This document shows, one piece after another, positions 45,041 through 60,408 of a DNA stretch of 64,000 nucleotides. The notes below the pieces were generated by a model. It saw nothing but the letters and a program-made list of their open reading frames with translations, did no database searches and was not told the DNA's origin. Numbering within the stretch: position 1 is the first letter of the stretch; every line of letters starts with the position of its first letter. Made by a program: the position numbers and the translations under genes. Source of the DNA: Comamonadaceae bacterium (lineage in GTDB: Bacteria; Pseudomonadota; Gammaproteobacteria; Burkholderiales; Burkholderiaceae_C); the NCBI GenBank assembly GCA_013297985.1, contig JAAFIY010000006.1:1-64000 (forward strand), read 5' to 3'.

Positions 45041-46494
45041 AGGGTGCGAGCCAGGGTTGGAGTAGAAGAAGCCGACGCCGACACAGGCATCGCTGCCAGG
45101 GACGACCAGTCGGGGTGGGCGGCGCTGGCAAAGCCTGGCGCCGCGCCAATCGTTTTCAGCGAAATCTGGCCTGCCACGCAGTAAAGACGTGGGCGATCTG
45201 CCGGGGTGTACAGATCTGCATGGGTGCGGGCAAAGGCGCGGGCCTCGTCCGCCGGGGCTGAGCCAAACCCATCCACGTAATGATGGCCGTTGCGCTCGAT
45301 ATGCGTGGCCCCCAGCAGGCCCACCAAGCACAGGTCTTGTTGCACGCCCAGGCCTGCTTGCGTGGTGAGGTCTTCGGCGCTGAGCACGCAGGATTGGCTG
45401 GGCTTTGATTGGTTGTGTCGGTCGATGCGGGCCGCGTTCACCAGCGACTTGTAAAGGCCCTTGCAGCATTTGCTGGACACACCGCGATAGCCCAACGCCT
45501 GTGCCTGCGGCCAACTGCCCCAGTCGGCGTCGGATTCGTCCATGACAAGTGGGGGCAGCCCCGGCGTGTCCACACGAGACGTCAGGGCGCTTTGGCGATG
45601 AATGGGTTGTTCAATCCAAGCCACCCGGGCGAGCAAGGCGCGCAGCTGCGGGCTCCCCTGTAACTCGGCCCAGAAAGCGGACACCGCCTGAACGTTGGCA
45701 AACTGTTCGTTGCCGTCCAGGGTGATTTGGCACCGCTCTGCGCCGGGTACGCGGGCGATGTGCTCCAGGCGCTGTTGATCAAACTCCACATCCCCTGTGA
45801 GCTTGATCTTGAGCCACTTGGGGGCCATGTGCTGCATCACGCCCACGAGCGTGCTGGGCAGGTCGTCGTCGGGTGCGTCGGCGGGTGGCTCGGTGAGTGC
45901 GTCCACGGCACCCACGGTGTGGCGCAATGCAATCGAAGCGGGCAGGGAGCGCTGACGCAGCCAAGTGGCCCAGTCGAAGTCATGCAAATCTGGCGCCACG
46001 GCGTGCGCCTTGAGCGCAGCGGCAAGCCCAAGGCTGTCGCGCTGAAGGGCTTGGGCGAAGGGCACAGCCAGGTGGCGACACACGCCGTCGGCAATGGCGC
46101 GGGCCAACAGCGCTGGGCCATAGTGGGCGGCCAACGGCTGCATCTGGCCATGCAGGAATTGCGTGGTGTGCAAATCAATTGCCAACGAAAGGCCGCAGGC
46201 GCTGTCGGGGTTAAGCGTGGTGACCACTTGGGCAGCGGTGTGGACGCTGGTGCGCAGGTGTTGCAGGTCTTGCTCGTGGCTTTGATCGGGCAGTTTTTCA
46301 AACCATTTGGGGACCAGCATTTCAGCGCCAGCGCCAACCGAGCTTCGCCCTTGGGCGTCGACCAACTCAACCCGTACGAAGGCTTGCGGCGCCTGGGTGA
46401 GCGTCATGACGCCAAAGCGAAATGGCAAGCGCAGCCGCACGGGGCGTTCGAACAGGTCCACGCGTGCCACACGCAGCTTGGGCGCATCAGGCAT
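45037..46494 (-). CDS. Enolase-superfamily protein (mandelate racemase/muconate lactonizing-like)
   Basis: 485 aa from ATG 46494, which overlaps the ABC ATPase gene by 8 bp; a longer in-frame start would overlap by 62 bp. The catalytic barrel carries KWLKIKLTGD (about 226-235, K-x-K base), the metal ligands TLDGNEQF and VAWIEQPIH, LVMDESDAD, and a second base candidate VSSKCCKGLYKSL. It would abstract a proton alpha to a carboxylate, for example in sugar-acid dehydration. The N-terminal capping domain (1-140) and a 50-residue tail make it long for the family. Confidence 0.78.
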   Translation of the reverse strand: MPDAPKLRVARVDLFERPVRLRLPFRFGVMTLTQAPQAFVRVELVDAQGRSSVGAGAEMLVPKWFEKLPDQSHEQDLQHLRTSVHTAAQVVTTLNPDSACGLSLAIDLHTTQFLHGQMQPLAAHYGPALLARAIADGVCRHLAVPFAQALQRDSLGLAAALKAHAVAPDLHDFDWATWLRQRSLPASIALRHTVGAVDALTEPPADAPDDDLPSTLVGVMQHMAPKWLKIKLTGDVEFDQQRLEHIARVPGAERCQITLDGNEQFANVQAVSAFWAELQGSPQLRALLARVAWIEQPIHRQSALTSRVDTPGLPPLVMDESDADWGSWPQAQALGYRGVSSKCCKGLYKSLVNAARIDRHNQSKPSQSCVLSAEDLTTQAGLGVQQDLCLVGLLGATHIERNGHHYVDGFGSAPADEARAFARTHADLYTPADRPRLYCVAGQISLKTIGAAPGFASAAHPDWSSLAAMPVSASASSTPTLARTL

Positions 46495-47260
46495 CGAGCT
46501 CGCCTTTTGAGAAAAAGTGCGCCCGAATTCGGCGCGCGTAGTCGGCAAACTCGGGCGAGCCCATCACGTCCAGATGGCGCGGGCGGGGCAGGTCAATGCG
46601 GTACTGGGCTGCGATTTGTCCAGGCCGCTCGCTCATCACCAGCACCCGATCCGCCAAGAAAATAGCTTCGGGAATGCTGTGCGTGATCAGCAACACCGTT
46701 TTTTGCGACTTAAGCACGATGTCTTGCAATGCAAGATTCATCTTTTCGCGCGTCATGGCGTCAAGTGCCCCAAACGGCTCATCCATCAACAACAAGGGCG
46801 GGTTGTGCAACAGGGCCCGACAAATCGACACCCGCTGCTGCATACCGCCTGAGAGCTGCCAGGGGTACTTATTTTCAAAGCCCTTCAGCCCGGCCAGCGC
46901 CACCAACTCGGCCGCGCGCGTGCGCGCCGCGTTCATGTCCAGGCCGCGCACTTCCGCTTGGAGCAAGATGTTGCCCAGGGCACGCTTCCACGGCAGCAGT
47001 ACCGCACTTTGAAAGACGATGCCCACCCCGGTTTGCGGGCCACGCACCTCTTGCCCTTGCAGGCGCAAAGCGCCCGAGGTAATCGGCAGCAGGCCCGCCA
47101 CCATCTTCATCAGCGTGCTTTTGCCGCAGCCCGAGGGGCCCACCACCGCAACGAACTCGCCAGCACAGATGTTGAAGCTCAAGGGCTTGAGCGACTCCAC
47201 TGGGCCGTCGGCGCTGGTGTACACCTTGGTGACGTCAACCGCTTCGATCAGCACTTTCAA
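46487..47260 (-). CDS. ABC transporter ATPase, NitT/TauT type
   Basis: About 257 aa from TTG 47260 (KVLIEAVDVTKVYTS), the usual start for the family; an ATG at 47350 in frame would overlap the binding-protein gene by 47 bp and add a 30-residue unrelated leader, so the start is uncertain. Walker A GPSGCGKSTL, Q-loop VFQSAVLLPW, signature LSGGMQQRV, Walker B LLLMDEPFGALDA and H-loop LLITHSIPEA are all intact. It powers import by the neighbouring permease. Confidence 0.9.
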   Translation of the reverse strand: MKVLIEAVDVTKVYTSADGPVESLKPLSFNICAGEFVAVVGPSGCGKSTLMKMVAGLLPITSGALRLQGQEVRGPQTGVGIVFQSAVLLPWKRALGNILLQAEVRGLDMNAARTRAAELVALAGLKGFENKYPWQLSGGMQQRVSICRALLHNPPLLLMDEPFGALDAMTREKMNLALQDIVLKSQKTVLLITHSIPEAIFLADRVLVMSERPGQIAAQYRIDLPRPRHLDVMGSPEFADYARRIRAHFFSKGELDA

Positions 47261-47303
47261 GCCGGTTTCTTGCGCGGGGGAGGGAGGATCTGCGCGCAAG
47301 GGC

Positions 47304-48302
47304 TTAGCTCGGTAGATGGGCCAGGGTGAAGTAGTCTTCAAAGCGCCCACGCTGAGCCGCTTCCAGGCCGCCCCATTCCACCAACATGTCCAGCGTGTCG
47401 TTGCCAGTTTTGGTGCTCATACGAAACGGGGGCAGGTTGCGCGTCTCGGGCGTGCGCCACAGCGGGATGGTGAGATTCAGACCCGCAATCAGACTGTCGC
47501 GCTGCCCCGATTTCGGATTGAGCTTGAGCATGGCGTCAATCGCCGCTTCTGGGCTGCGCTCAGTCTGCAAGGCCGCTTGGGTGGTCGCCCGCATGAAGCG
47601 GTTGGCCAATTCAGGCTGGCGCTGCAAGGTGTCGCGGTGGGCAATCACGCCGGTGGCCACCAAGTTGACGCCGTATTGGTGAAAGGCGATATGGCTGGTG
47701 GGCTTTTTGGTGGCATCGGTGATGCGAATGCCTTGGTCCATCAAGAAACCCAGCAGCGCATCGGCCTGCCCGTTGATCACCGCATTGAGCTTGGTTTGTG
47801 CATCACCCGCTACCGTACGGAATTCGCTTTCACGGATGCCCGTCTTGCGCAAAAACAGCGGCCAAATCTGGCTGAGCGCGTCGCCCGGCGTGGTGGCGAT
47901 CACCTTGCCGCGAATGTCTTCGGGTTTGGTGATGTTCTTCTCAGCCAGACTGATGACCGCCATGGGGCTGGTTTGCAGCATCACGCCAATGGATCGGATA
48001 GGTGCCCCGCGCGCCGCAGCCCGCACCACCGCACCGGTGTCGGCGTAGCCGAACTGCACCGAGTTGGCTGCCACTGCTTGCACCGTTGGCCCAGATCCGC
48101 GGCCTTCTTGGATTTCAATGTCGATGCCCTCGGCTTCATACAAACCACGCTCACGACCTAAGTAGAAGGGTGCGTGCTCGCTGTAGGTGTACCAGTTCAG
48201 CATCAGCGTGACCTTTTGGCGCGTCTGCGCATACAAGGCGGGGCTGCCCAATGTGGCTGCAGCAGCGCTGGCCAAAACTTGAAGGGTTGTGCGGCGTTTC
48301 AT
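47304..48302 (-). CDS. ABC transporter substrate-binding protein, NMT1/THI5-like
   Basis: 332 aa with a signal peptide (RTTLQVLASAAAATLGSPALYAQ). The mature part starts KVTLMLNWYTYSEHAPFYLGRERGLYEAEGIDIEIQEG, typical of NitT/TauT/THI5-like binding proteins, and continues VQFGYADTGAVVRAAARGAPIR. Relatives bind sulfonates, pyrimidines or aromatic acids; the ligand here is unknown. Confidence 0.9.
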   Translation of the reverse strand: MKRRTTLQVLASAAAATLGSPALYAQTRQKVTLMLNWYTYSEHAPFYLGRERGLYEAEGIDIEIQEGRGSGPTVQAVAANSVQFGYADTGAVVRAAARGAPIRSIGVMLQTSPMAVISLAEKNITKPEDIRGKVIATTPGDALSQIWPLFLRKTGIRESEFRTVAGDAQTKLNAVINGQADALLGFLMDQGIRITDATKKPTSHIAFHQYGVNLVATGVIAHRDTLQRQPELANRFMRATTQAALQTERSPEAAIDAMLKLNPKSGQRDSLIAGLNLTIPLWRTPETRNLPPFRMSTKTGNDTLDMLVEWGGLEAAQRGRFEDYFTLAHLPS

Positions 48303-48359
48303 GGTGTCTCCTCTTGGGTGGGTCTGGCGGGGCGAGAACTTGGAGATGGACTTGGCGCT

Positions 48360-49142
48360 TCAGGCCACTGGTTGCAGGTCGTGCCGTTGGGAGGCGTGCC
48401 ACGGCAGGGCATAGCGCTCGATGACTTCCAGTACCCAAAAGAGCACCACGCCCATCACCGACAACACCACCAGGGCAGCAAACATCAGCGGCAAATCAAA
48501 GGTGCCGTTGGCCTTTTGCAGCACATAGCCCAAGCCCGAGTTAGAGCCCACAAATTCACCCACCACGGCGCCCACAACGGCCAAGGTAATAGAGACCTTC
48601 AGGCCGCTGAAGATGGCAGGCAAGGCGTAGGGCAGCCGAAAACGCAGAAACACGCCGACGCGCGACGCGCCCATGGATCGCGCCAAATCAATGACATCTG
48701 GCTCGACGGACTTAAAGCCACTGACGGTGGCCACCACCACGGGGAAAAATCCCAGCAAAAACGCCGCAATCACCTTGGGCACCAGGCCAAAACCAAACCA
48801 CACCACAAACAGCGGCGCCACCGCCACCTTCGGAATCGATTGCGAAAACACCAGCAGCGGATACACAAAGCTTTCGACCAGTCGCGAATACGCGATCGCC
48901 ATGGCCACGGGCACACCCACCACCACAGACAGCGCAAATCCGCCAAGCGTGGCCGCCAGGGTAGGCGCAGCCTCTTTCATGAGCATCGGCCACTCTTTGA
49001 ACAATTGCCCCAGCACCGACTGCGGCGTGGGCACCAAGAACGGCTGGATGCCGAAGATGCGGATCACCAAATCCCACAGCACCAGCAAGATGGCCAGCGA
49101 CACCAAGGGTCGCAGCCAGGCCGCACTTAACAGGCGGCGCAT
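48360..49142 (-). CDS. ABC transporter permease, NitT/TauT type
   Basis: 260 aa, about six membrane helices. The BPD_transp_1 coupling loop (EAA motif) is SMGASRVGVFLRFRLPYALPAIFSGLKV. Its start and the stop of the dioxygenase gene share one base (TGATG), showing translational coupling to the oxygenase gene. Confidence 0.9.
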   Translation of the reverse strand: MRRLLSAAWLRPLVSLAILLVLWDLVIRIFGIQPFLVPTPQSVLGQLFKEWPMLMKEAAPTLAATLGGFALSVVVGVPVAMAIAYSRLVESFVYPLLVFSQSIPKVAVAPLFVVWFGFGLVPKVIAAFLLGFFPVVVATVSGFKSVEPDVIDLARSMGASRVGVFLRFRLPYALPAIFSGLKVSITLAVVGAVVGEFVGSNSGLGYVLQKANGTFDLPLMFAALVVLSVMGVVLFWVLEVIERYALPWHASQRHDLQPVA

Positions 49143-49936
49143 CAGGCCGTCACCTGGTGTTGGGGCGTGTCGGTCACGCGGTATTTCAGGCTATGGTCAT
49201 AGGGCAGCGCGGGGTGGGCAAACTCGACGTCGTTGCGCACAAAGTGCAGCGCGCAGGCGCGCCGCCAATGCGGCGAATGGTTGGGCCCCGACACATGGAA
49301 GGTGTTGCCATGGTGAAAGGACACACCCCCCTTGCGCACAGGCGCGGGGCTCATGGGCTGCTTGTCCAAAATAGGGGCACCTATCTGCAAGTTGTACGGT
49401 TCGCCTTCGGGCGCAAAGTGCGGATACACCGGCCCCAAATGGGTGCCATCGCCGTAGTACAGACAGCCGTTTTCAAGCGTGGAGTCGTCCAGCGCAATCC
49501 ACGCGGTCACGACACCTTCTGGGTCGGTCGGGCCAAAGTAGTAGTTGTCTTGGTGCGCAGGCTTCGGCCCGCCGCCTTCTGGTGGCTTGAAGAACACCTG
49601 ACTGAAATAAATCGACACGCCGGGCCCCACCAGCGCGTGCACCCAAGCGAGCAGCCTGGGGTTGTGGGCCAACTGGCGCACCAGCGGGCGGTGGTGATGC
49701 GGGTTGTCTAACTTGCGCAGCACGGTGCGCGCTTGCACGCCGGTGTCGATGTACCAAGCCCTGCGCTCGGGCGGCAGATCAGACAAGAACTGTTCGCCCC
49801 ACGCATGGATGTCGGCTACCACCGCGTCTACTGTGGCAGTGTCAAACACCCCGTTGACTGTGAGGTGCCCTTGCAAGCGGTAGTGGCCCACCGAATACGG
49901 ATCAACTGGCGACGAGGTGGTAGCGGCGATGTTCAT
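49142..49936 (-). CDS. Phytanoyl-CoA dioxygenase (PhyH)-family Fe(II)/2-oxoglutarate oxygenase
   Basis: 264 aa. A double-stranded beta-helix oxygenase: HQDNYYFGP supplies the H-x-D iron ligands (about residues 128-130), the distal His lies in HHGNTFHVSGPNHSPHWRRACALHF, and the Arg there can hold 2-oxoglutarate. Members hydroxylate lipids, phosphonates, ectoine or sugars. It is the first gene of the 11-gene operon and is translated together with the ABC permease, so its product or substrate probably enters by that transporter. A strong promoter lies just upstream. Confidence 0.88.
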   Translation of the reverse strand: MNIAATTSSPVDPYSVGHYRLQGHLTVNGVFDTATVDAVVADIHAWGEQFLSDLPPERRAWYIDTGVQARTVLRKLDNPHHHRPLVRQLAHNPRLLAWVHALVGPGVSIYFSQVFFKPPEGGGPKPAHQDNYYFGPTDPEGVVTAWIALDDSTLENGCLYYGDGTHLGPVYPHFAPEGEPYNLQIGAPILDKQPMSPAPVRKGGVSFHHGNTFHVSGPNHSPHWRRACALHFVRNDVEFAHPALPYDHSLKYRVTDTPQHQVTA

Positions 49937-50111: not shown

Positions 50112-52277
50112 ATGAAGCGTTCTGGCATTTTCAAAGTTGTGCTCACCCTGGCCATGGTGGCCGGGGTAGCGGGCAGCGGGTGGTGGTGGCAGCAGCGGGA
50201 TGACACCGATACGGCCAACTACCGCACCGGCAAAATTGAGCGGGGCACGCTGGCGGCCACGGTGTCGGCCAGCGGTGCAGTCAATCCGGTTTCTTTGGTG
50301 ACGGTGGGCACCCAGGTGTCGGGGCAAATCCGCGATTTGTTGGTGGATTTCAATACCGAAGTCAAAGCCGGGCAGTTGCTGGCGCAAATTGACCCTGAGA
50401 CCTTTGAATACCGGGTGCGCTCGGCCCAGGCAGATGTGGATTCGGCCCGCGCGGCGGTGCTGACATCGCAAGCCAACGCGCTAGCGGCACGCGCCAATGT
50501 GTCGCGTTCGCAAGCCGATGTGAACGAGGCCCGCCGCACCCACGACCGAAATGTGAGCCTGGTGGCGCAGAACTTCATTTCGCAAAGCGAAGCCGAACGC
50601 ACAGCCGCCGTGGTGATCCAAACCCAAGAAACGCTGCGCAGCATCCAAGCGCAGTTGCAGGTGGCCGAAGCACAGATCAAAACGGCCGAAGCCACTGTGG
50701 CCCAACGCCAAGCCACTTTGGCGCAGGCGCAGGTGGATTTAAGCCGCACCCGCATCGTCTCGCCCATCAATGGCATCGTGGTCAAACGCTCCATTGAGCG
50801 CGGCCAGACGGTGGCCGCCAGCTTGCAGGCACCTGAGCTGTTTGTGATTGCACAAAACCTGCAAGACATGCAGGTGGACGCCAGCGTGGACGAAGCCGAT
50901 GTGGGCCGTATCCGCACCGGCCAAAACGCCACCTTCACCATCGACGCTTTCCCCGGCCAAACCTTTGATGGCACGGTGCGCCAGGTGCGCAAAGCGGCGG
51001 TCAATGTGAACAACGTGGTGAGCTATGTGGTGGTGGTGGCGTTTTCCAACACCAGCGGGCGCTTGCTGCCGGGCATGACGGCCAACGTGCGGGTGGTCAC
51101 CGACCAGCGCGACAACGTGCTCAAGGTGCCCAATGCTGCCCTGCGGGTGCGCATTGCGGGCTTGGAACCCGAAAGCCTGCCCAACCCAGGATCGCCGCCG
51201 GGCGCAACACCGCCCGCGGCGGCACCTGCGACCGCACCGACAAATGGCCCCGCCGCAAGCCCGGCAGGGGCACCTGCTTCCGCTCCCGTCTCTACCCCAG
51301 CCTCCACCCCCCCGGCCACTTCCACCAGTTGGTTGCGCCAACTAGAGGCATGGCTGCCCAGTGCCCATGCGCAAACCCCACCGGGCGGGCAGATGGCGGC
51401 CATGCGCGACCGCTTAGTGGCTGATTTGCAATTGAGCCCAGCGCAGCAAACCAAGCTCGACCAGATCTTGGAGCAAATGCGCCCGCAGTTCGCCGCCCTG
51501 CGCGACATGAGCGACGAGCAGCGCGCCACCGAGCGCCCCAAGCTCATGGGCCAAATGCGTGAGCGCATCAACGCCATCTTGGAGCCAGCGCAGCGCGAGC
51601 ACTACGCGGCCATGCAAGCGCAGCGGGGCCCACAAGCCCGCACCGATGCGCCAGCGGGGGTTGCACCGTCCGCTACAAATTCTGTAGCTGCTTCGGCAGA
51701 TAAATCGGGCGGTACAGGCGCATCAGCCGCAAAACCCGCGGCCAGTGCCCGCGCAGCTGCCACGCCCATCGGCCCGCTCGCCAAGCCGCGTGAAGGCTCA
51801 GGCCCTGGGGTGGAATACCGCAACCGCCTGATCACCGAACTGCGCTTGACCGAAGAGCAAGCGGCCAAGGTGGACGATTTCTTTGCCGAAGCGCGCCCCA
51901 AGTTTGGCGCCCTGCGCGAACTGCCCGAAGAAGCCCGCCGCAAAGCGCGCGAAGCCATCATGGCCGACATCCGTGGCCGCATCAGCGATGTGCTGAGCGC
52001 CGAGCAAAAAACCCGCTTTGTCCAGATGCAGGCTGAGGCAGGCACGCGCCAGGTCACTCGCGGCCGCGTGCATGTGCTGGGCGCTGACAACAAACCCAAG
52101 GCCTATGCGGTGCGCTTAGGCATTACCGACGGCAACTTCACCGAACTGATCGTGCCGCCCGACAGTCCCGCAGGCCGCGTGCTGACAGAAGGCGCCACGG
52201 TGATCACGGGTGTACCTGCGGCGGCGGCTAGCAACAGGCCCGCAGGCGGCTCAGCCGCGCCGCGCCTGCCCTTCTGA
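50112..52277 (+). CDS. macA: MacA-like periplasmic adaptor with two Spy/CpxP-like modules
   Basis: 721 aa from ATG 50112, nearly twice the normal MacA length (about 370-390). Residues 8-26 are a membrane anchor; 55-98 and 210-255 form the lipoyl domain, 98-210 the helical hairpin, 250-345 the beta-barrel. Then comes an insertion of about 300 residues: a Pro/Ala linker (350-405), a helical module (about 428-505; LSPAQQTKLDQIL, LEPAQREHY), a second linker and a similar module (571-645; LTEEQAAKVDDFF, LSAEQKTRF). The membrane-proximal domain resumes at about 648-700 (VHVLGADNKPKAYAVRLGITDG). The L-T/S-x-x-Q pattern is that of Spy/CpxP. A hairpin repeat copy encodes residues 520-534. Confidence 0.85.
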   Translation: MKRSGIFKVVLTLAMVAGVAGSGWWWQQRDDTDTANYRTGKIERGTLAATVSASGAVNPVSLVTVGTQVSGQIRDLLVDFNTEVKAGQLLAQIDPETFEYRVRSAQADVDSARAAVLTSQANALAARANVSRSQADVNEARRTHDRNVSLVAQNFISQSEAERTAAVVIQTQETLRSIQAQLQVAEAQIKTAEATVAQRQATLAQAQVDLSRTRIVSPINGIVVKRSIERGQTVAASLQAPELFVIAQNLQDMQVDASVDEADVGRIRTGQNATFTIDAFPGQTFDGTVRQVRKAAVNVNNVVSYVVVVAFSNTSGRLLPGMTANVRVVTDQRDNVLKVPNAALRVRIAGLEPESLPNPGSPPGATPPAAAPATAPTNGPAASPAGAPASAPVSTPASTPPATSTSWLRQLEAWLPSAHAQTPPGGQMAAMRDRLVADLQLSPAQQTKLDQILEQMRPQFAALRDMSDEQRATERPKLMGQMRERINAILEPAQREHYAAMQAQRGPQARTDAPAGVAPSATNSVAASADKSGGTGASAAKPAASARAAATPIGPLAKPREGSGPGVEYRNRLITELRLTEEQAAKVDDFFAEARPKFGALRELPEEARRKAREAIMADIRGRISDVLSAEQKTRFVQMQAEAGTRQVTRGRVHVLGADNKPKAYAVRLGITDGNFTELIVPPDSPAGRVLTEGATVITGVPAAAASNRPAGGSAAPRLPF
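51671..51713 (+). repeat. Hairpin repeat copy inside macA
   Basis: CGCTACAAATTCTGTAGC then TGCTTCGGCAG and AATCGGGCGG closely follows intergenic copy 1. It is read in frame as ATNSVAASADKSGG in the linker between the two Spy-like modules. Confidence 0.8.
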
Positions 52278-52314: not shown

Positions 52315-53058
52315 ATGGCGCTGATCGACGCCCGCGACCTGACCAAAACCTACGTGATGGGCGACCAAACCGTGCACGCCCTGCGCGGTGTGAGCCTGCA
52401 GGTGCAAGCAGGTGGGTTTGTGGCCATCATGGGGGCGTCGGGCTCGGGCAAAAGCACGCTGATGAACATCCTGGGCTGCTTGGATGTGCCCAGCGATGGT
52501 CAATACCAATTGGCCGGTGAAGCCGTGGAAAAAATGGACAGCGACGCCTTGGCGGCGGTGCGCAATCGGCACATTGGCTTTGTGTTTCAGCAGTTCAATT
52601 TGTTGCCCCGCACCTCGGCGCTAGAAAACGTCGAGCTACCCATGGTCTACGCCGGTGTGCGCTCGCAACAGCGGAGCGAACGCGCCCTGGCTGCGCTCAC
52701 CCAAGTGGGATTGGCCGACCGGGCTGAACACACCCCCACTGAGCTTTCAGGCGGCCAACAGCAGCGCGTGGCCATCGCACGCGCCTTGGTCAACAAGCCC
52801 AGCCTGATCTTGGCCGACGAGCCCACCGGCGCGCTCGACACCCAAACCAGCGAAGACATCATGCGGCTGCTGACTGATCTAAACGCCCAAGGCATGACGG
52901 TGGTGCTGGTCACTCACGAACACGACATTGCCGCTTGGGCCCAACGCACCGTGGTGTTTCGCGATGGCCGCATGGTGGAAGACCGCCTGAACCCGCCGCA
53001 CCCACGCGCTGGTGTTGCACCACCCGCAGCGGCTGAACCCCAAGGAGTTGCGCCATGA
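52315..53058 (+). CDS. ABC transporter ATPase of MacB/LolD type
   Basis: 247 aa from ATG 52315. Walker [12 protein letters not shown]-loop [10 protein letters not shown], signature LSGGQQQRV, Walker [14 protein letters not shown]-loop [12 protein letters not shown]. In E. coli MacB the ATPase and permease are fused; here they are separate genes overlapping by 4 bp. It drives export or mechanotransmission through the outer membrane with the MacA-like adaptor. Confidence 0.92.
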
Positions 53059-54284
53059 ACTTTCTGGCCGCACTGCGCTCCGCTTGGCGCGCGCTGGCTG
53101 CCAACACGCTGCGCAGCTTTTTAACGATGCTGGGCATCATCATTGGCGTGGCGGCCGTCATCACCATGATCGCCGTGGGCAAGGGTGCCACCGAGCGGGT
53201 GCAGGATCAGCTCAAAAGCCTGGGCACCAATGTCATGCTGGTCATGCCTGGCAGCCTGAGCGCTGCTGGCGTGCGCCAAGGCGCACAAACCCGGTCGCGC
53301 TTTACCGAAGACGACGCCGAAGCTGTGGCCCGCGAAGTGACTGAGGTGGCGGTGGTGGCCCCCGGCTCGCGCACCCAAGCCCAAGTGGTGGCGCAAAACG
53401 CCAACTGGAACACCCAGATTTTTGGCACCAGCAATGATTTTTTAGAGGTGCGCGAATGGCCTTTGCAAGCCGGGCGGCTGTTTGAAGCGTCTGAGATGAC
53501 CGGCTCGGGCAAAGTGGCCTGGATTGGTCAGACGGTGGCGCGTGAGTTGTTTGGCGACACCGACCCCATCGACCAGGTGGTGCGGGTGCGCGGCGTGCCT
53601 TTCACCATTGTGGGCGTGCTGGGCAAAAAGGGGCAAAACGCCAGCGGGGCGGATCAAGATGACATCGTCATCATGCCCATGGCCACCTTTCGCAACCGCA
53701 TCTGGAACGCGGGCGGCAACGTCAAACGCATCTGGAGCATGCACGTAAAGGTGCGCGAAGGCGCCGACATGAAAGTGGCCGAAGACAACATCCGCGAACT
53801 GCTGCGCCAGCGCCTGAAAGTGCCACCCGGGGGGGACGACACCTTCACCATTCGCAACCTGTCAGAGATCTTGCAAGCGCAAGAAGCGTCCAGCCGCATC
53901 ATGACCTTGCTGCTGGCGGCGGTGGCGGGCATCAGCTTGATCATTGGTGGCATCGGCATCATGAACATCATGCTGGTGAGCGTGACCGAACGCACCCGCG
54001 AAATTGGCCTGCGCATGGCGGTGGGCGCCAGGGGTCGCGACATCTTGGCGCAGTTCCTCATTGAAGCGGTGACGCTGTGCCTTGTGGGTGGCGCGATTGG
54101 CGTGGCGCTGGGTGCTGCAGCCACCTGGGGCGTGGCGCACTTTGCGGGCTGGCAGGTAAGTCTGACGGCCGCATCCATCGCGCTGGCGGCTGGTTTTGCG
54201 GCTTTTGTCGGCGTGTTCTTTGGCTTTTACCCCGCTAGGCGAGCTTCCAAGTTGCTGCCCATTCAGGCCTTGCGCTACGAATAA
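53055..54284 (+). CDS. ABC transporter permease of MacB type
   Basis: 409 aa. One membrane helix near residue 25, a large periplasmic MacB_PCD domain (about 45-265; IIIGVAAVITMIAVGKGA at its start), then three helices of the FtsX domain (about 285-400) with IIGGIGIMNIMLVSVTERTREIGLRMAVGARGRDI and the closing PARRASKLLPIQALRYE. It completes the macAB-like operon. The last codons and the stop lie in the left arm of a hairpin repeat. Confidence 0.92.
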   Translation: MNFLAALRSAWRALAANTLRSFLTMLGIIIGVAAVITMIAVGKGATERVQDQLKSLGTNVMLVMPGSLSAAGVRQGAQTRSRFTEDDAEAVAREVTEVAVVAPGSRTQAQVVAQNANWNTQIFGTSNDFLEVREWPLQAGRLFEASEMTGSGKVAWIGQTVARELFGDTDPIDQVVRVRGVPFTIVGVLGKKGQNASGADQDDIVIMPMATFRNRIWNAGGNVKRIWSMHVKVREGADMKVAEDNIRELLRQRLKVPPGGDDTFTIRNLSEILQAQEASSRIMTLLLAAVAGISLIIGGIGIMNIMLVSVTERTREIGLRMAVGARGRDILAQFLIEAVTLCLVGGAIGVALGAAATWGVAHFAGWQVSLTAASIALAAGFAAFVGVFFGFYPARRASKLLPIQALRYE

Positions 54285-54346: not shown

Positions 54347-55168
54347 TTGGATATTCCGCTGCTGGCGAAGGCCGCCATCCTGGGGGTGGTTGAAGGCCTG
54401 ACCGAATTTTTGCCCATCTCGTCCACCGGCCACCTCATTTTGGTGGGCAGTCTATTGGGCTGGACCGATGAAAAAGCCAAGGTGTTTGACATCGCCATCC
54501 AGTCGGGCGCCATCTTGGCCGTCATCTTGGTGTATTGGCAGCGTCTGTGGCAAACCCTGCGTGATTTGCCCACGCAGGCGCAGGCTCAGCGATTTGCTTT
54601 GAATGTGACGATCGCGTTTTTCCCAGCGGTGGTACTGGGCTTGACGCTGGGCGCAGCTATCAAGGCGCATTTGTTCACCGCCACGGTCGTGGCCATTGCG
54701 CTCATCGTGGGCGGCTTCATCATTTTGTGGGCCGAGGCGCGGCAGTCCCGCCACGTGCGGGTGCAAAGCGTAGACGACATGAGCCCGCTAGACGCTTTGA
54801 AGGTGGGCCTGGTGCAATGCGTGGCCATGATCCCTGGCACCAGCCGCAGCGGCGCCACCATCATCGGCGGCATGTTGATGGGCTTGTCGCGCCAGACGGC
54901 CACTGATTTTTCGTTCTACCTGGCCATCCCCACCCTGGTGGGTGCGGGCGTGTACAGCCTGTACAAAGAACGCGCCCTCTTGAGCATGGGCGACATACCC
55001 ATGTTCGCCGTGGGCACAGTGTTTGCCTTCTTTAGCGCATGGGTCTGTGTGCGCTGGCTGCTGCGCTACATCGCCAGCCACAGCTTTGTGCCGTTTGCGT
55101 ACTACCGCATCGTGTTTGGTGCGCTGATTTTGATCACCGCGCAGCTGGGTTGGGTAGATTGGGGTTGA
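54347..55168 (+). CDS. uppP: Undecaprenyl-diphosphate phosphatase
   Basis: 273 aa from TTG 54347 (no in-frame ATG fits). About eight membrane helices; the catalytic motifs [15 protein letters not shown] (about residues 15-29) and [15 protein letters not shown] (about 160-175) are intact. It recycles the undecaprenyl carrier for cell-wall synthesis and gives bacitracin resistance. It follows the macAB-like genes on the same strand after a repeat; the opposing ParA-like gene ends 4 bp away. Confidence 0.94.
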
Positions 55169-56836: not shown

Positions 56837-57682
56837 TTAGATCAGTCGCACACTGGGGTCAGTGATCTTGCGCAGCGCCTGGCTGCGCCCGCGGGCTTCC
56901 ACCATCAGTGGCACTTCGGTGTGGCTGTGGTCCCAGGTGGGGTCTTCGATGCTGTCAAACACCTCGCGCAGCTTTTGGCCCCAGCTGGTGCGCACCATGC
57001 GGAAATAGGGGTTGTGCTCATCGATGCAGATGATTTTGTCGGTGGCCAAGCGGTCGGCGTGGTAGAGCGCCATGTCAAGCGGCAGGCCCACGCTCAAGTT
57101 GGATTTGAGGGTGCTGTCCATCGACACCAAGGCGCACTTGGCGGCTTCGTCCAGAGGCGTGTCGGGTGTGATGACGCGGTCGAGCACCGGTTTGCCGTAT
57201 TTGCTTTCGCCAATTTGAAAGTAGGGCGTCTCGGGCGTGGCTTCAATGAAGTTGCCGGCCGAATACACCTGAAACAGCCGCATGCCTTCGCCCTTGATCT
57301 GCCCGCCAAATATCAGTGACACATTGAAGTCCACCCCGTTTTGCTTTAAGGCTGCGCTGTCGCGGGCATGCACATGGCGCACAGCAGCGCCCAGCACCCG
57401 CACGGCGTCAAACATGCTGGTGGCGTTCCAGATGGTGACGGGCTGGGCTGACTCGCCGGTGTGCGCGTCTTTCTCGTGTAGTTGCTCCACCTGCAAGATT
57501 TCGCGCACCGACTGCGAGATGCTCAGGTTGCCCGCTGACAGCAGCACCATAAAACGGTCGCCGGGCTTTTCATACACGATCATTTTGTGAAAGGTGCTGA
57601 TCTGGTCCAGCCCCGCGTTGGTGCGCGAATCCGACAAAAACACCAAGCCCGCTTTGAGCTTGATGGCAACGCAGTAGGTCAT
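56837..57682 (-). CDS. Proteasome-type protease (Anbu/BPH-like, COG3484)
   Basis: 281 aa. An Ntn-hydrolase that starts [22 protein letters not shown]: removal of Met would expose catalytic Thr1, with Asp17 (LSDS) and Lys32 (FHKM) placed as in proteasome beta subunits and HslV. It is longer than HslV (about 180 aa), as Anbu and the betaproteobacterial homologues are. Anbu is usually encoded with a transglutaminase, an alpha-E protein and an ATP-grasp protein; none is present. Its start overlaps the mutS stop (ATGA). Substrate and any ATPase partner are unknown. Confidence 0.85.
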
Positions 57683-60408
57683 GGCGGTGTCTGTTTTGAG
57701 TGTGAGGAATGTGGGGGCGGCAGCAGTGCTTTGAGCTCATACAGCGCGGCCAGGGCGTCGCGCGGGCTCATTTGATCGGGCTGCAAGGCTTGTAGCGCCT
57801 GCTGTAGGGCCGTGTGGGCCGTGGTTACAGCGGAGTCTGTGGCAGATTCTAGAGAGGCCTCAAGCGGCAGCGGTGCAAACAAATCCACCTGGGTTTGCTG
57901 GGCCTGGGCTTGTTGTTCCAAGGCGGCCAGGGTGCGGTTGGCTTGCTGCAGCACCGCTGCAGGCACGCCCGCAAGTCGCGCCACCTGAATGCCGTGGCTG
58001 CGGCTGGCGGGGCCGCTTTGGAGTTCGTGCAAAAACACAATGTCGCGGCCCGATTCCACCGCGCTCACATGGCGGTTCACTGCACCTGCGTGGCGGGCTG
58101 GGAATTCGGTGAGCTCAAAGTAGTGGGTGGCAAACAGAGTGAAGCACTGGCTGCGCTCGTGCAAATGGGTGGCAATCGCACCAGCGAGCGCCAGGCCGTC
58201 AAAGGTACTGGTGCCGCGGCCAATTTCGTCCATCAAGACTAAGGACTGCGGCGTGGCGGCACGCAAAATTTGCGCGGCCTCGACCATCTCCAACATAAAG
58301 GTGGACTGCGCATTGGCCAAATCGTCGGCCGCGCCAATGCGGGTGTGGATGGCGTCAACCGGCCCGATGCGCGCGGCGGCCGCGGGCACGTCAGACCCGA
58401 TGCAAGCCAACAACACGATCAGCGCCACTTGGCGCATGTAGGTGCTTTTACCGCCCATGTTGGGGCCGGTGATGACCTGGGTGCGTTCTTTGACTGACAG
58501 GCGGCAGTCATTGGGTACAAAAGGTGTGGGCGCGTCTGGCCGCTCTGCCAAGCGCTGCTCTACCACCGGGTGCCGGCCCAGTGAGATGTCAATGCAAGGC
58601 TCGCGCACCAGCGCTGGGCGACACCATTTGAGGGTGATGGACCGCTCCGCCAGCGTACACAGCACATCCAGCTGCGCCAGGGCCGTGGCAATGCGGGTGA
58701 GGGCGGGCACTTCGGCGGCGAGTTGGTCTAGCAGTTGCTCAAACAGCAGCCGTTCGCGTTGCAAGGCACGCTCTTGGGCCGACAGGGCCTTGTCTTCAAA
58801 GGCTTTGAGCTCGGGGGTGATGAAGCGCTCGGCGTTTTTCAGCGTTTGGCGGCGGCGGTAGTCGCTTGGCACGCGGGCCAATTGGCCGGTGGTGACCTCA
58901 ATGTAGAAGCCGTGCACCCGGTTGAACTGCACCCGCAGGTTGGCGATGCCAGTGCGTTCGCGTTCGCGTTGCTCCATGGCCAGCAAATAGGCGTCGCAGT
59001 CGCGGTCAATGGCGCGCAAATCGTCTAGTTCAGCATCAAAACCCGGCGCGATCACACCGCCGTCGCGCACCAGGGTGGCGGGGTCCTCCGCCAAAGCCGT
59101 GCCCAGAAGTGCGGCGGCCCGGCTGGGGGTGCGCAAGCCGTCGAAGATATGGACCAAAAGTGCCGATTCCGCCCTATTGGTGGGCGTAAGTAGCTCACAT
59201 TTTTGTAGCGTTTGGCGTAGAGCAGCCAGTTCGCGCGGGCGCACTTGGCGCAGGCTGATGCGGGCGCTGATGCGTTGCACATCGCACACGCCGCGCAGCC
59301 AGTCGCGCCAGTGATGCGTGGGCGCGTCGGCATGTCCGGTCTGCTTGAGGGTGGCGACTGCGTCTTGCCGGGCCAGGGCCAGGGTGCGGTCTCGCGGTGG
59401 TTCTAGCAGCCAGCTGCGCAGCAGTCGGCTGCCCATGCCGGTGCGGCAGGTGTCCAACAAGGACAGCAAAGTGGGCTGCGTTTCGCCGCGCAAGGTTTGG
59501 GTCAGCTCTAGGTTGCGCTGGGTGATGGCGGACAAGCCCACGGTGCTGTCGTCACGCACCACCTCCAACTGGTTCCAGTGCGACAGCGCGCGGCCTTGGG
59601 TGTGCTGGGCATAGGCCAGCAAGGCGGCAGCGGCGGCGTGGGCGGGCCCCAGGTGCTGGGCGCCGAAGCCTTCCAACGTGGCGGTTTGCAATTGTTCGCA
59701 CAACTGGCGTTGGCCCAGGGGCCCGTCAAATTGCCAAGCCGGACGGCGGGTGAGCACGCTGCGCGCCCCGGCGGTGGGCGAGCCAACCAGGGCTTGCAAG
59801 GTGCGCCAACGCGCATCGCTCAATGCATCGCTGGCGATGACTTCTTGAGCGCCAATTCGCTGCAACCAAGGGGGCAAATCGGCGGCGTCACATTGCGCCA
59901 AGCGCACGCTGGGCTGCAGCACGCTCATCCAGGCCAAGCCGTAGCTGCCGCCCTGCGCCCGCTCAGGCGCGGGGGCATGCAGCGCCAGCACCACCGCGTC
60001 GGCGCGCTCGGGCAGCAGTTCGGTGTCAGTGAGCGTGCCGGGGGTGACCACCCGCACCACTTTGCGATCAACCGGGCCCTTGGCATTGACTTCGCCAACC
60101 TGCTCGCAAATGGCGACGGATTCACCGGCGCGAATCAGCCGTGCGAGATAGGACTCCATGGAATGCGCGGGCACGCCCGCCATCACCACAGGCTTGCCCG
60201 CCGATTGGCCGCGCTGGGTGAGGGTGATGTCCAGCAAGGCAGCAGCGCGAACGGCGTCTTCAAAAAACAGTTCGTAGAAGTCGCCCATGCGGTAGAACAC
60301 CAAGGTCTGCGCATACCCAGCTTTCACGCTCAGGTATTGCTGCATCATTGGCGTGTGAGATTCGGGCGAGGTCAAAACGGGGTTTTCCAAAAACGACAGA
60401 GGCTGCAC
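57679..60408 (-). CDS. mutS: DNA mismatch repair protein MutS
   Basis: 909 aa (E. coli MutS has 853). Mismatch-binding [14 protein letters not shown] (Phe-x-Glu segment), lever and core domains, Walker [13 protein letters not shown] (about 646-657), [16 protein letters not shown] and the [23 protein letters not shown] end are intact. It recognises mispairs and recruits MutL. The start is uncertain: GTG 60408 is used, but TTG codons 20-40 bp downstream would also fit. Codons about 398-416 coincide with a hairpin repeat copy. It opens the operon mutS-Anbu-hydrolase-ParA. Confidence 0.96.
59161..59216 (-). repeat. Hairpin repeat copy inside mutS
   Basis: On the coding strand ACGCTACAAAAATGTGAGC, then TACTTACGCCC and AATAGGGCGGAATCGG. 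It keeps the frame and encodes [16 protein letters not shown], in the lever/core region of MutS. Confidence 0.78.

Follow-up and report, generated by a model that had tools for sequence, protein, structure and literature searches.

A MacA-type pump adaptor with two predicted Spy/CpxP-type modules in its membrane-proximal loop

The window, a 64,000-nucleotide stretch of Comamonadaceae DNA, encodes on its plus strand (50112..52277) a 721-residue MacA/RND_mfp-type periplasmic adaptor. Its anatomy is almost certainly that of a MacAB-type adaptor with domains of the Spy/CpxP fold in the loop of the membrane-proximal (MP) domain. The identification draws on the ORF translation, Pfam, NCBIfam and a predicted model. 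Pfam placed HlyD_D23 at residues 49-324 and HlyD_3 at residues 215-321, and in Pfam and NCBIfam together the HlyD/MacA adaptor family accounts for the first 345 residues. The protein passed the NCBIfam model RND_mfp (TIGR01730) with 149.9 bits against a curated cut-off of 94.9, but did not reach the MacA equivalog NF008606 (PRK11578), scoring 159.3 bits against a curated cut-off of 342. Its top PDB sequence match is MacA.

The whole chain was modelled with AlphaFold2 from an alignment of 42 sequences, and the predicted model contains the lipoyl, hairpin and barrel domains as well as the MP strands, which is the RND_mfp/MacA-type layout. An N-terminal helix that includes a predicted membrane anchor (residues 3-32; 50118..50207, plus strand, as are all features of the adaptor) precedes the MacA core (residues 36-345; 50217..51146), which comprises the N-terminal strands of the MP domain, the lipoyl domain, the helical hairpin (helices at 95-152 and 158-211) and the barrel, with strands up to residue 340. 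About 300 additional residues lie between the barrel and the C-terminal strands of the MP domain (residues 649-701; 52056..52214), which were modelled at 649-656, 662-672, 676-680 and 696-701. These strands agree with the original prediction of a complete MacA fold whose MP domain resumes after residue 648. The insertion of some 300 residues that it described is likewise present as extra sequence, but consists of about 160 residues of folded modules and two disordered Pro/Ala-rich linkers (346-425 and 507-557). Linker 1, rich in Pro, Ala and Thr (residues 346-426; 51147..51389; pLDDT below 50 at 346-391 and 393-425), leads to module 1, which has four helices and was delimited by Pfam, the repeat alignment and the model (residues 427-505; 51390..51626). 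The mostly disordered linker 2 (residues 506-564; 51627..51803; pLDDT below 50 at 507-557) is followed by module 2, also of four helices, for which the repeat alignment, the PDB search and the models were used (residues 565-645; 51804..52046). The module bounds first proposed, 428-505 and 571-645, were thus nearly right, except that the second module had been started about six residues too late. Beyond the MP strands the modelled chain is a disordered tail. Its end, PRLPF (52260..52274), is conserved in the alignment as PR-x-x-F; P717, R718 and F721 are invariant in the 42 sequences, and the stretch preceding them is variable and disordered.

The two modules are similar to each other, as had been noted at the outset. 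They align without gaps with 27 of 75 residues identical (36%), and their alignment score of 143 was equalled by none of 2000 shuffles (mean 28.6, sd 5.3). Both sequence elements of the motif described there occur twice, as LSPAQ (441-445) and LEPAQR (490-495) in module 1 and as LTEEQ (579-583) and LSAEQK (628-633) in module 2. The Pfam family LTXXQ (PF07813) scored 27.2 bits in the adaptor against a gathering cut-off of 24.3, over two stretches of which 429-502 is the better, and was matched at E 0.01 or better by 15 of 18 module-plus-MP segments taken from the window's own protein and its relatives. In a search of all PDB sequences with the module profile, Spy of E. coli occupied the top four places (E 7.4e-4 to 0.016); the match to STV (5ihf) was weak (E 6.4).

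Structure prediction, which could have returned something other than helices of the Spy type, pointed in the same direction. Module 2 modelled alone, from 64 module sequences, forms four helices (H3-15, H19-41, H44-65 and H68-85) with a mean pLDDT of 91, and this predicted single chain has the four-helix protomer of the Spy/CpxP fold. Spy itself acts as a homodimer with a concave client-binding face. Among the leading Foldseek matches to this model are STV, CpxP, Spy and CnrX, with weak E-values (best 0.058). VIA-align gave Z values of 10.4 for STV, 7.3 to 8.8 for Spy, up to 7.9 for CnrX and 6.9 for CpxP, a size of Z value that helical bundles generally can produce; spider-silk domains, another helical bundle, are interleaved in the same list at Z 6.5 to 7.7. 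The relation to Spy is convincing because the sequence match comes on top of these fold values. Taken together, the family profile, the blind PDB sequence search and the predicted fold support the assignment of the modules to the Spy/CpxP type, as originally predicted.

The resemblance to CnrX and NccX would also fit a metal-sensing or metal-buffering role of the CnrX/NccX/ZraP type, and the Metal_resist family was weakly matched by two of the 18 module-plus-MP segments. However, cysteine occurs in none of 83 modules and histidine in two of them, at no conserved position. A metal-sensor role, and with it the metal-stress reading raised at the outset, was rejected because the modules have neither cysteine nor a conserved histidine as ligands, and we regard it as highly improbable.

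The adaptor gene is adjoined by the two genes expected of a MacAB-type operon. A MacB/LolD-type ABC ATPase (52315..53058, plus strand; Pfam, NCBIfam) is followed by a MacB-type permease with MacB_PCD and FtsX matches (53055..54284, plus strand; Pfam, NCBIfam), and both are kept beside the adaptor across its relatives. The ATPase reading frame is open from 52210, inside the adaptor gene; homology and an ATG suggest a start at 52315. The uppP/bacA gene for undecaprenyl-diphosphate phosphatase (54347..55168, plus strand), a frequent operon neighbour among relatives, lies 3' of the permease in many of them, including some with module-free adaptors. The pump may be connected with the undecaprenyl-phosphate cycle or with bacitracin-like peptides. 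Farther along is mutS (57679-60408, minus strand), and upstream a minus-strand group (46487-49936) contains SsuABC/TauABC-type ABC importer genes (ATPase, NMT1 binding protein and permease) and a PhyH-family dioxygenase gene. As to a TolC-type outer-membrane channel, with which a MacAB-TolC-like pump would assemble, genes of the OEP family are present elsewhere in the source genome, which also has two other LTXXQ-family genes, L001 (G000:C128) and L002 (G000:C13), weakly matched by the adaptor modules. These two were considered as module donors and rejected, as the module profile barely recognises them (best domain 5.7 bits). An origin of the adaptor in a phage or plasmid was likewise rejected: the listed matches in both collections cover the MacA part only and none covers most of the protein. 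The viral contigs searched gave no match.

Two further features bear on how the modules might work. The junction between module 2 and the MP domain is eight residues long in 39 of 41 proteins, and the linkers range from 35 to 113 residues. Directly before module 1 stands a short motif that is conserved, W..(L)..A.AQ (WLRQLEAWLPSAHAQ, residues 407-421; 51330..51374); its fuller form is W.W(L/F)..A.AQ. The A.AQ element was found in all two-module relatives of sufficient length and is missing from most single-module relatives, with exceptions that include L053, L060, L061, L063, L065 and L116. A signal peptidase site at A.AQ was considered and rejected, the sequence having no preceding hydrophobic core.

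The main rival to cargo holding, the role that we favour below, is a CpxP-like switch, in which the modules would dock on the pump or on a partner signalling protein and damp it until misfolded or amphipathic cargo released them, so that the pump would be on only under envelope stress. The sensory proteins CpxP and CnrX are among the structural matches, and the fixed junction ties module 2 to the MP domain, the part that contacts the transporter in other pumps (PMC5985334). The aromatic motif conserved before module 1 in two-module forms could serve as a built-in ligand. Against this, no two-component system or sigma factor is among the identified neighbourhood genes, several neighbours having no NCBIfam match, and no inhibitory contact was predicted. 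We consider such a switch unlikely.

Within the window's family, the module region was found at E 1e-8 or better in 34 of 301 genomes (about 11%) and 24 of 141 genera. Named genomes with modules are almost all Burkholderiales, mostly Comamonadaceae, and the genera with module-bearing adaptors include Curvibacter, Rhodoferax, Polaromonas, Hylemonella, Hydrogenophaga and Ramlibacter, among others. Module-bearing relatives have one or two modules, and the two-module form was seen only within the window's own family. Curvibacter delicatus NBRC 14919 (L096) is a natural carrier of the operon with a one-module adaptor. One-module adaptors with the same insertion site occur in other families of Burkholderiales, where the search matched five families. 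At the level of the phylum, one further family within the class gave matches, as did three families from outside it. In the loci inspected the adaptor has the ATPase and MacB permease as neighbours and contains, at the corresponding site, an LTXXQ-like stretch, with Pfam LTXXQ below cut-off or absent and the module profile at 7 to 37 bits. The presence of module-bearing adaptors across Pseudomonadota, as judged from these sequence scores, is less certain than in Burkholderiales. When genome contigs were searched with the insert alone, no match was obtained. Close orthologues free of modules retain the operon (L150 to L153 and L207), several with uppP adjoining, and it follows that the pump does not need the modules.

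Copy number has changed repeatedly. When each adaptor is labelled by its number of modules (none, one or two), the tree of the adaptor core needs at least 15 changes, fewer than the mean of 27.7 for shuffled labels. All 26 two-module proteins have a first module of one type and a second module of another, and by score almost all of the 31 single modules belong with the second type. The single module of L066 is ambiguous. The one in L063 belongs to the first type but switches near residue 72, and the one in L060 switches type near residue 14; from their sequences both look like recombinants of modules 1 and 2, such as in-frame recombination would give. Recombination between modules is a likely route of copy-number change.

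These changes, the recombinant-looking modules and the existence of module-free orthologues are what would be expected of a nearly neutral passenger, an insertion tolerated by the loop and lost and duplicated by chance. We nevertheless find this improbable. Seven residues are invariant across 64 modules, the same insertion site recurs in a number of other families within the phylum, and the median dN/dS of the modules (0.24) is close to that of the MacA core (0.20). By these ratios the modules are under purifying selection. The aligned columns of the linkers give 0.28, so that dN/dS alone fails to distinguish the modules; the fixed lengths do. Purifying selection and the fixed junction between module 2 and the MP domain would suit a structural role, in which the modules stiffen the ring of adaptors or anchor the pump in the peptidoglycan layer and leave cargo untouched. 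In the predicted model, however, they lie in or beside long disordered linkers, and the same operon occurs with module-free adaptors. We judge a structural role quite unlikely, if a little less so than a neutral passenger.

The most likely role of the modules, which we put forward tentatively and at somewhat less than even probability, is the holding or handling of cargo at the pump entrance. A review places substrate entry at a cavity of the MacB-MacA interface and states that MacB and its homologues have peptides among their substrates (PMC5985334). Spy is described as a periplasmic chaperone (PMC3910116, PMC8546600) that is ATP-independent and binds clients (PMC6811625, PMC3910116). The proposed machine is a MacAB-type tripartite ABC pump whose adaptor carries predicted Spy/CpxP-fold domains in the MP loop, two in this protein and a single one in many relatives. 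By analogy with the MacA hexamer, up to twelve modules per pump would ring the entrance that lies on the periplasmic side, where adaptor and permease meet, and, being joined to the MP domain, they would lie near the interface cavity. They may loosely bind unfolded or amphipathic peptides in the manner of Spy, and peptides so bound would be kept soluble and concentrated where the permease picks up periplasmic cargo. Module 2 is fixed to the MP domain by its constant junction, and module 1, on long flexible tethers, might extend the reach. Several points count against Spy-like holding. The charge of the modules is near neutral (mean +1.2 to +1.6), whereas Spy binds its clients with a basic face; Spy works as a dimer; the Foldseek E-values are weak; and module-free orthologues keep the operon.

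Chaperone-like domains at the pump entrance would offer a genetic handle on the question of how periplasmic cargo is selected and gathered by MacB-type pumps, as natural orthologues with no, one or two modules can be compared directly in the same operon. If the proposal is true, it would show the Spy/CpxP fold in a new use, built into a transporter as one of its parts. A broader reading, that there is a widespread and as yet undescribed class of MacAB-type pumps with their own Spy-type chaperones, to which cargo is handed directly and whose capacity is tuned by gain and loss of modules, is more doubtful than cargo holding itself. The layout was not known at the outset to have been described. 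No description of a MacA adaptor with Spy-like modules was found in the open papers searched, but this protein does not stand alone in its layout, as versions with one module are common in Burkholderiales. A full-text search combining LTXXQ with membrane fusion protein returned a single paper, which concerns silver responses. Neither a chaperone nor Spy, CpxP or an insertion is mentioned in a review of periplasmic adaptors from 2026, and the portion examined of a large 2021 review names neither Spy nor CpxP. Domain databases may list the adaptor-plus-LTXXQ architecture without comment.

Among known systems, the closest structural match to the modules is STV, the Salmonella VirG-like protein (5io8; rmsd 1.9 over 78 residues), known here by its structure title and, as noted, weakly matched in sequence. 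CnrX and NccX resemble the modules in their helical fold (Z 7.0 to 7.9) but differ in their metal-binding residues, cysteine and conserved histidine being absent from the modules. CpxP, a member of the LTXXQ family, also has a similar fold, aligned over 79 residues, but is a free regulator of CpxA, and no such sensor was identified beside the adaptor operon. Spy resembles the modules in its four-helix fold, in the two LTxxQ-type elements and in giving the best PDB sequence matches; it is free and soluble, whereas the module here has 75 residues and about neutral charge and is tethered in a pump adaptor. The adaptor itself is most like MacA of MacAB-TolC, being membrane-anchored, built from lipoyl, hairpin, barrel and MP domains, encoded in an operon with an ABC ATPase and a MacB-type permease, and having MacA as its best PDB sequence match. 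It differs from that system in its score below the equivalog cut-off, in the separate genes for ATPase and permease, and in the roughly 300 extra residues that place two modules in the MP loop.
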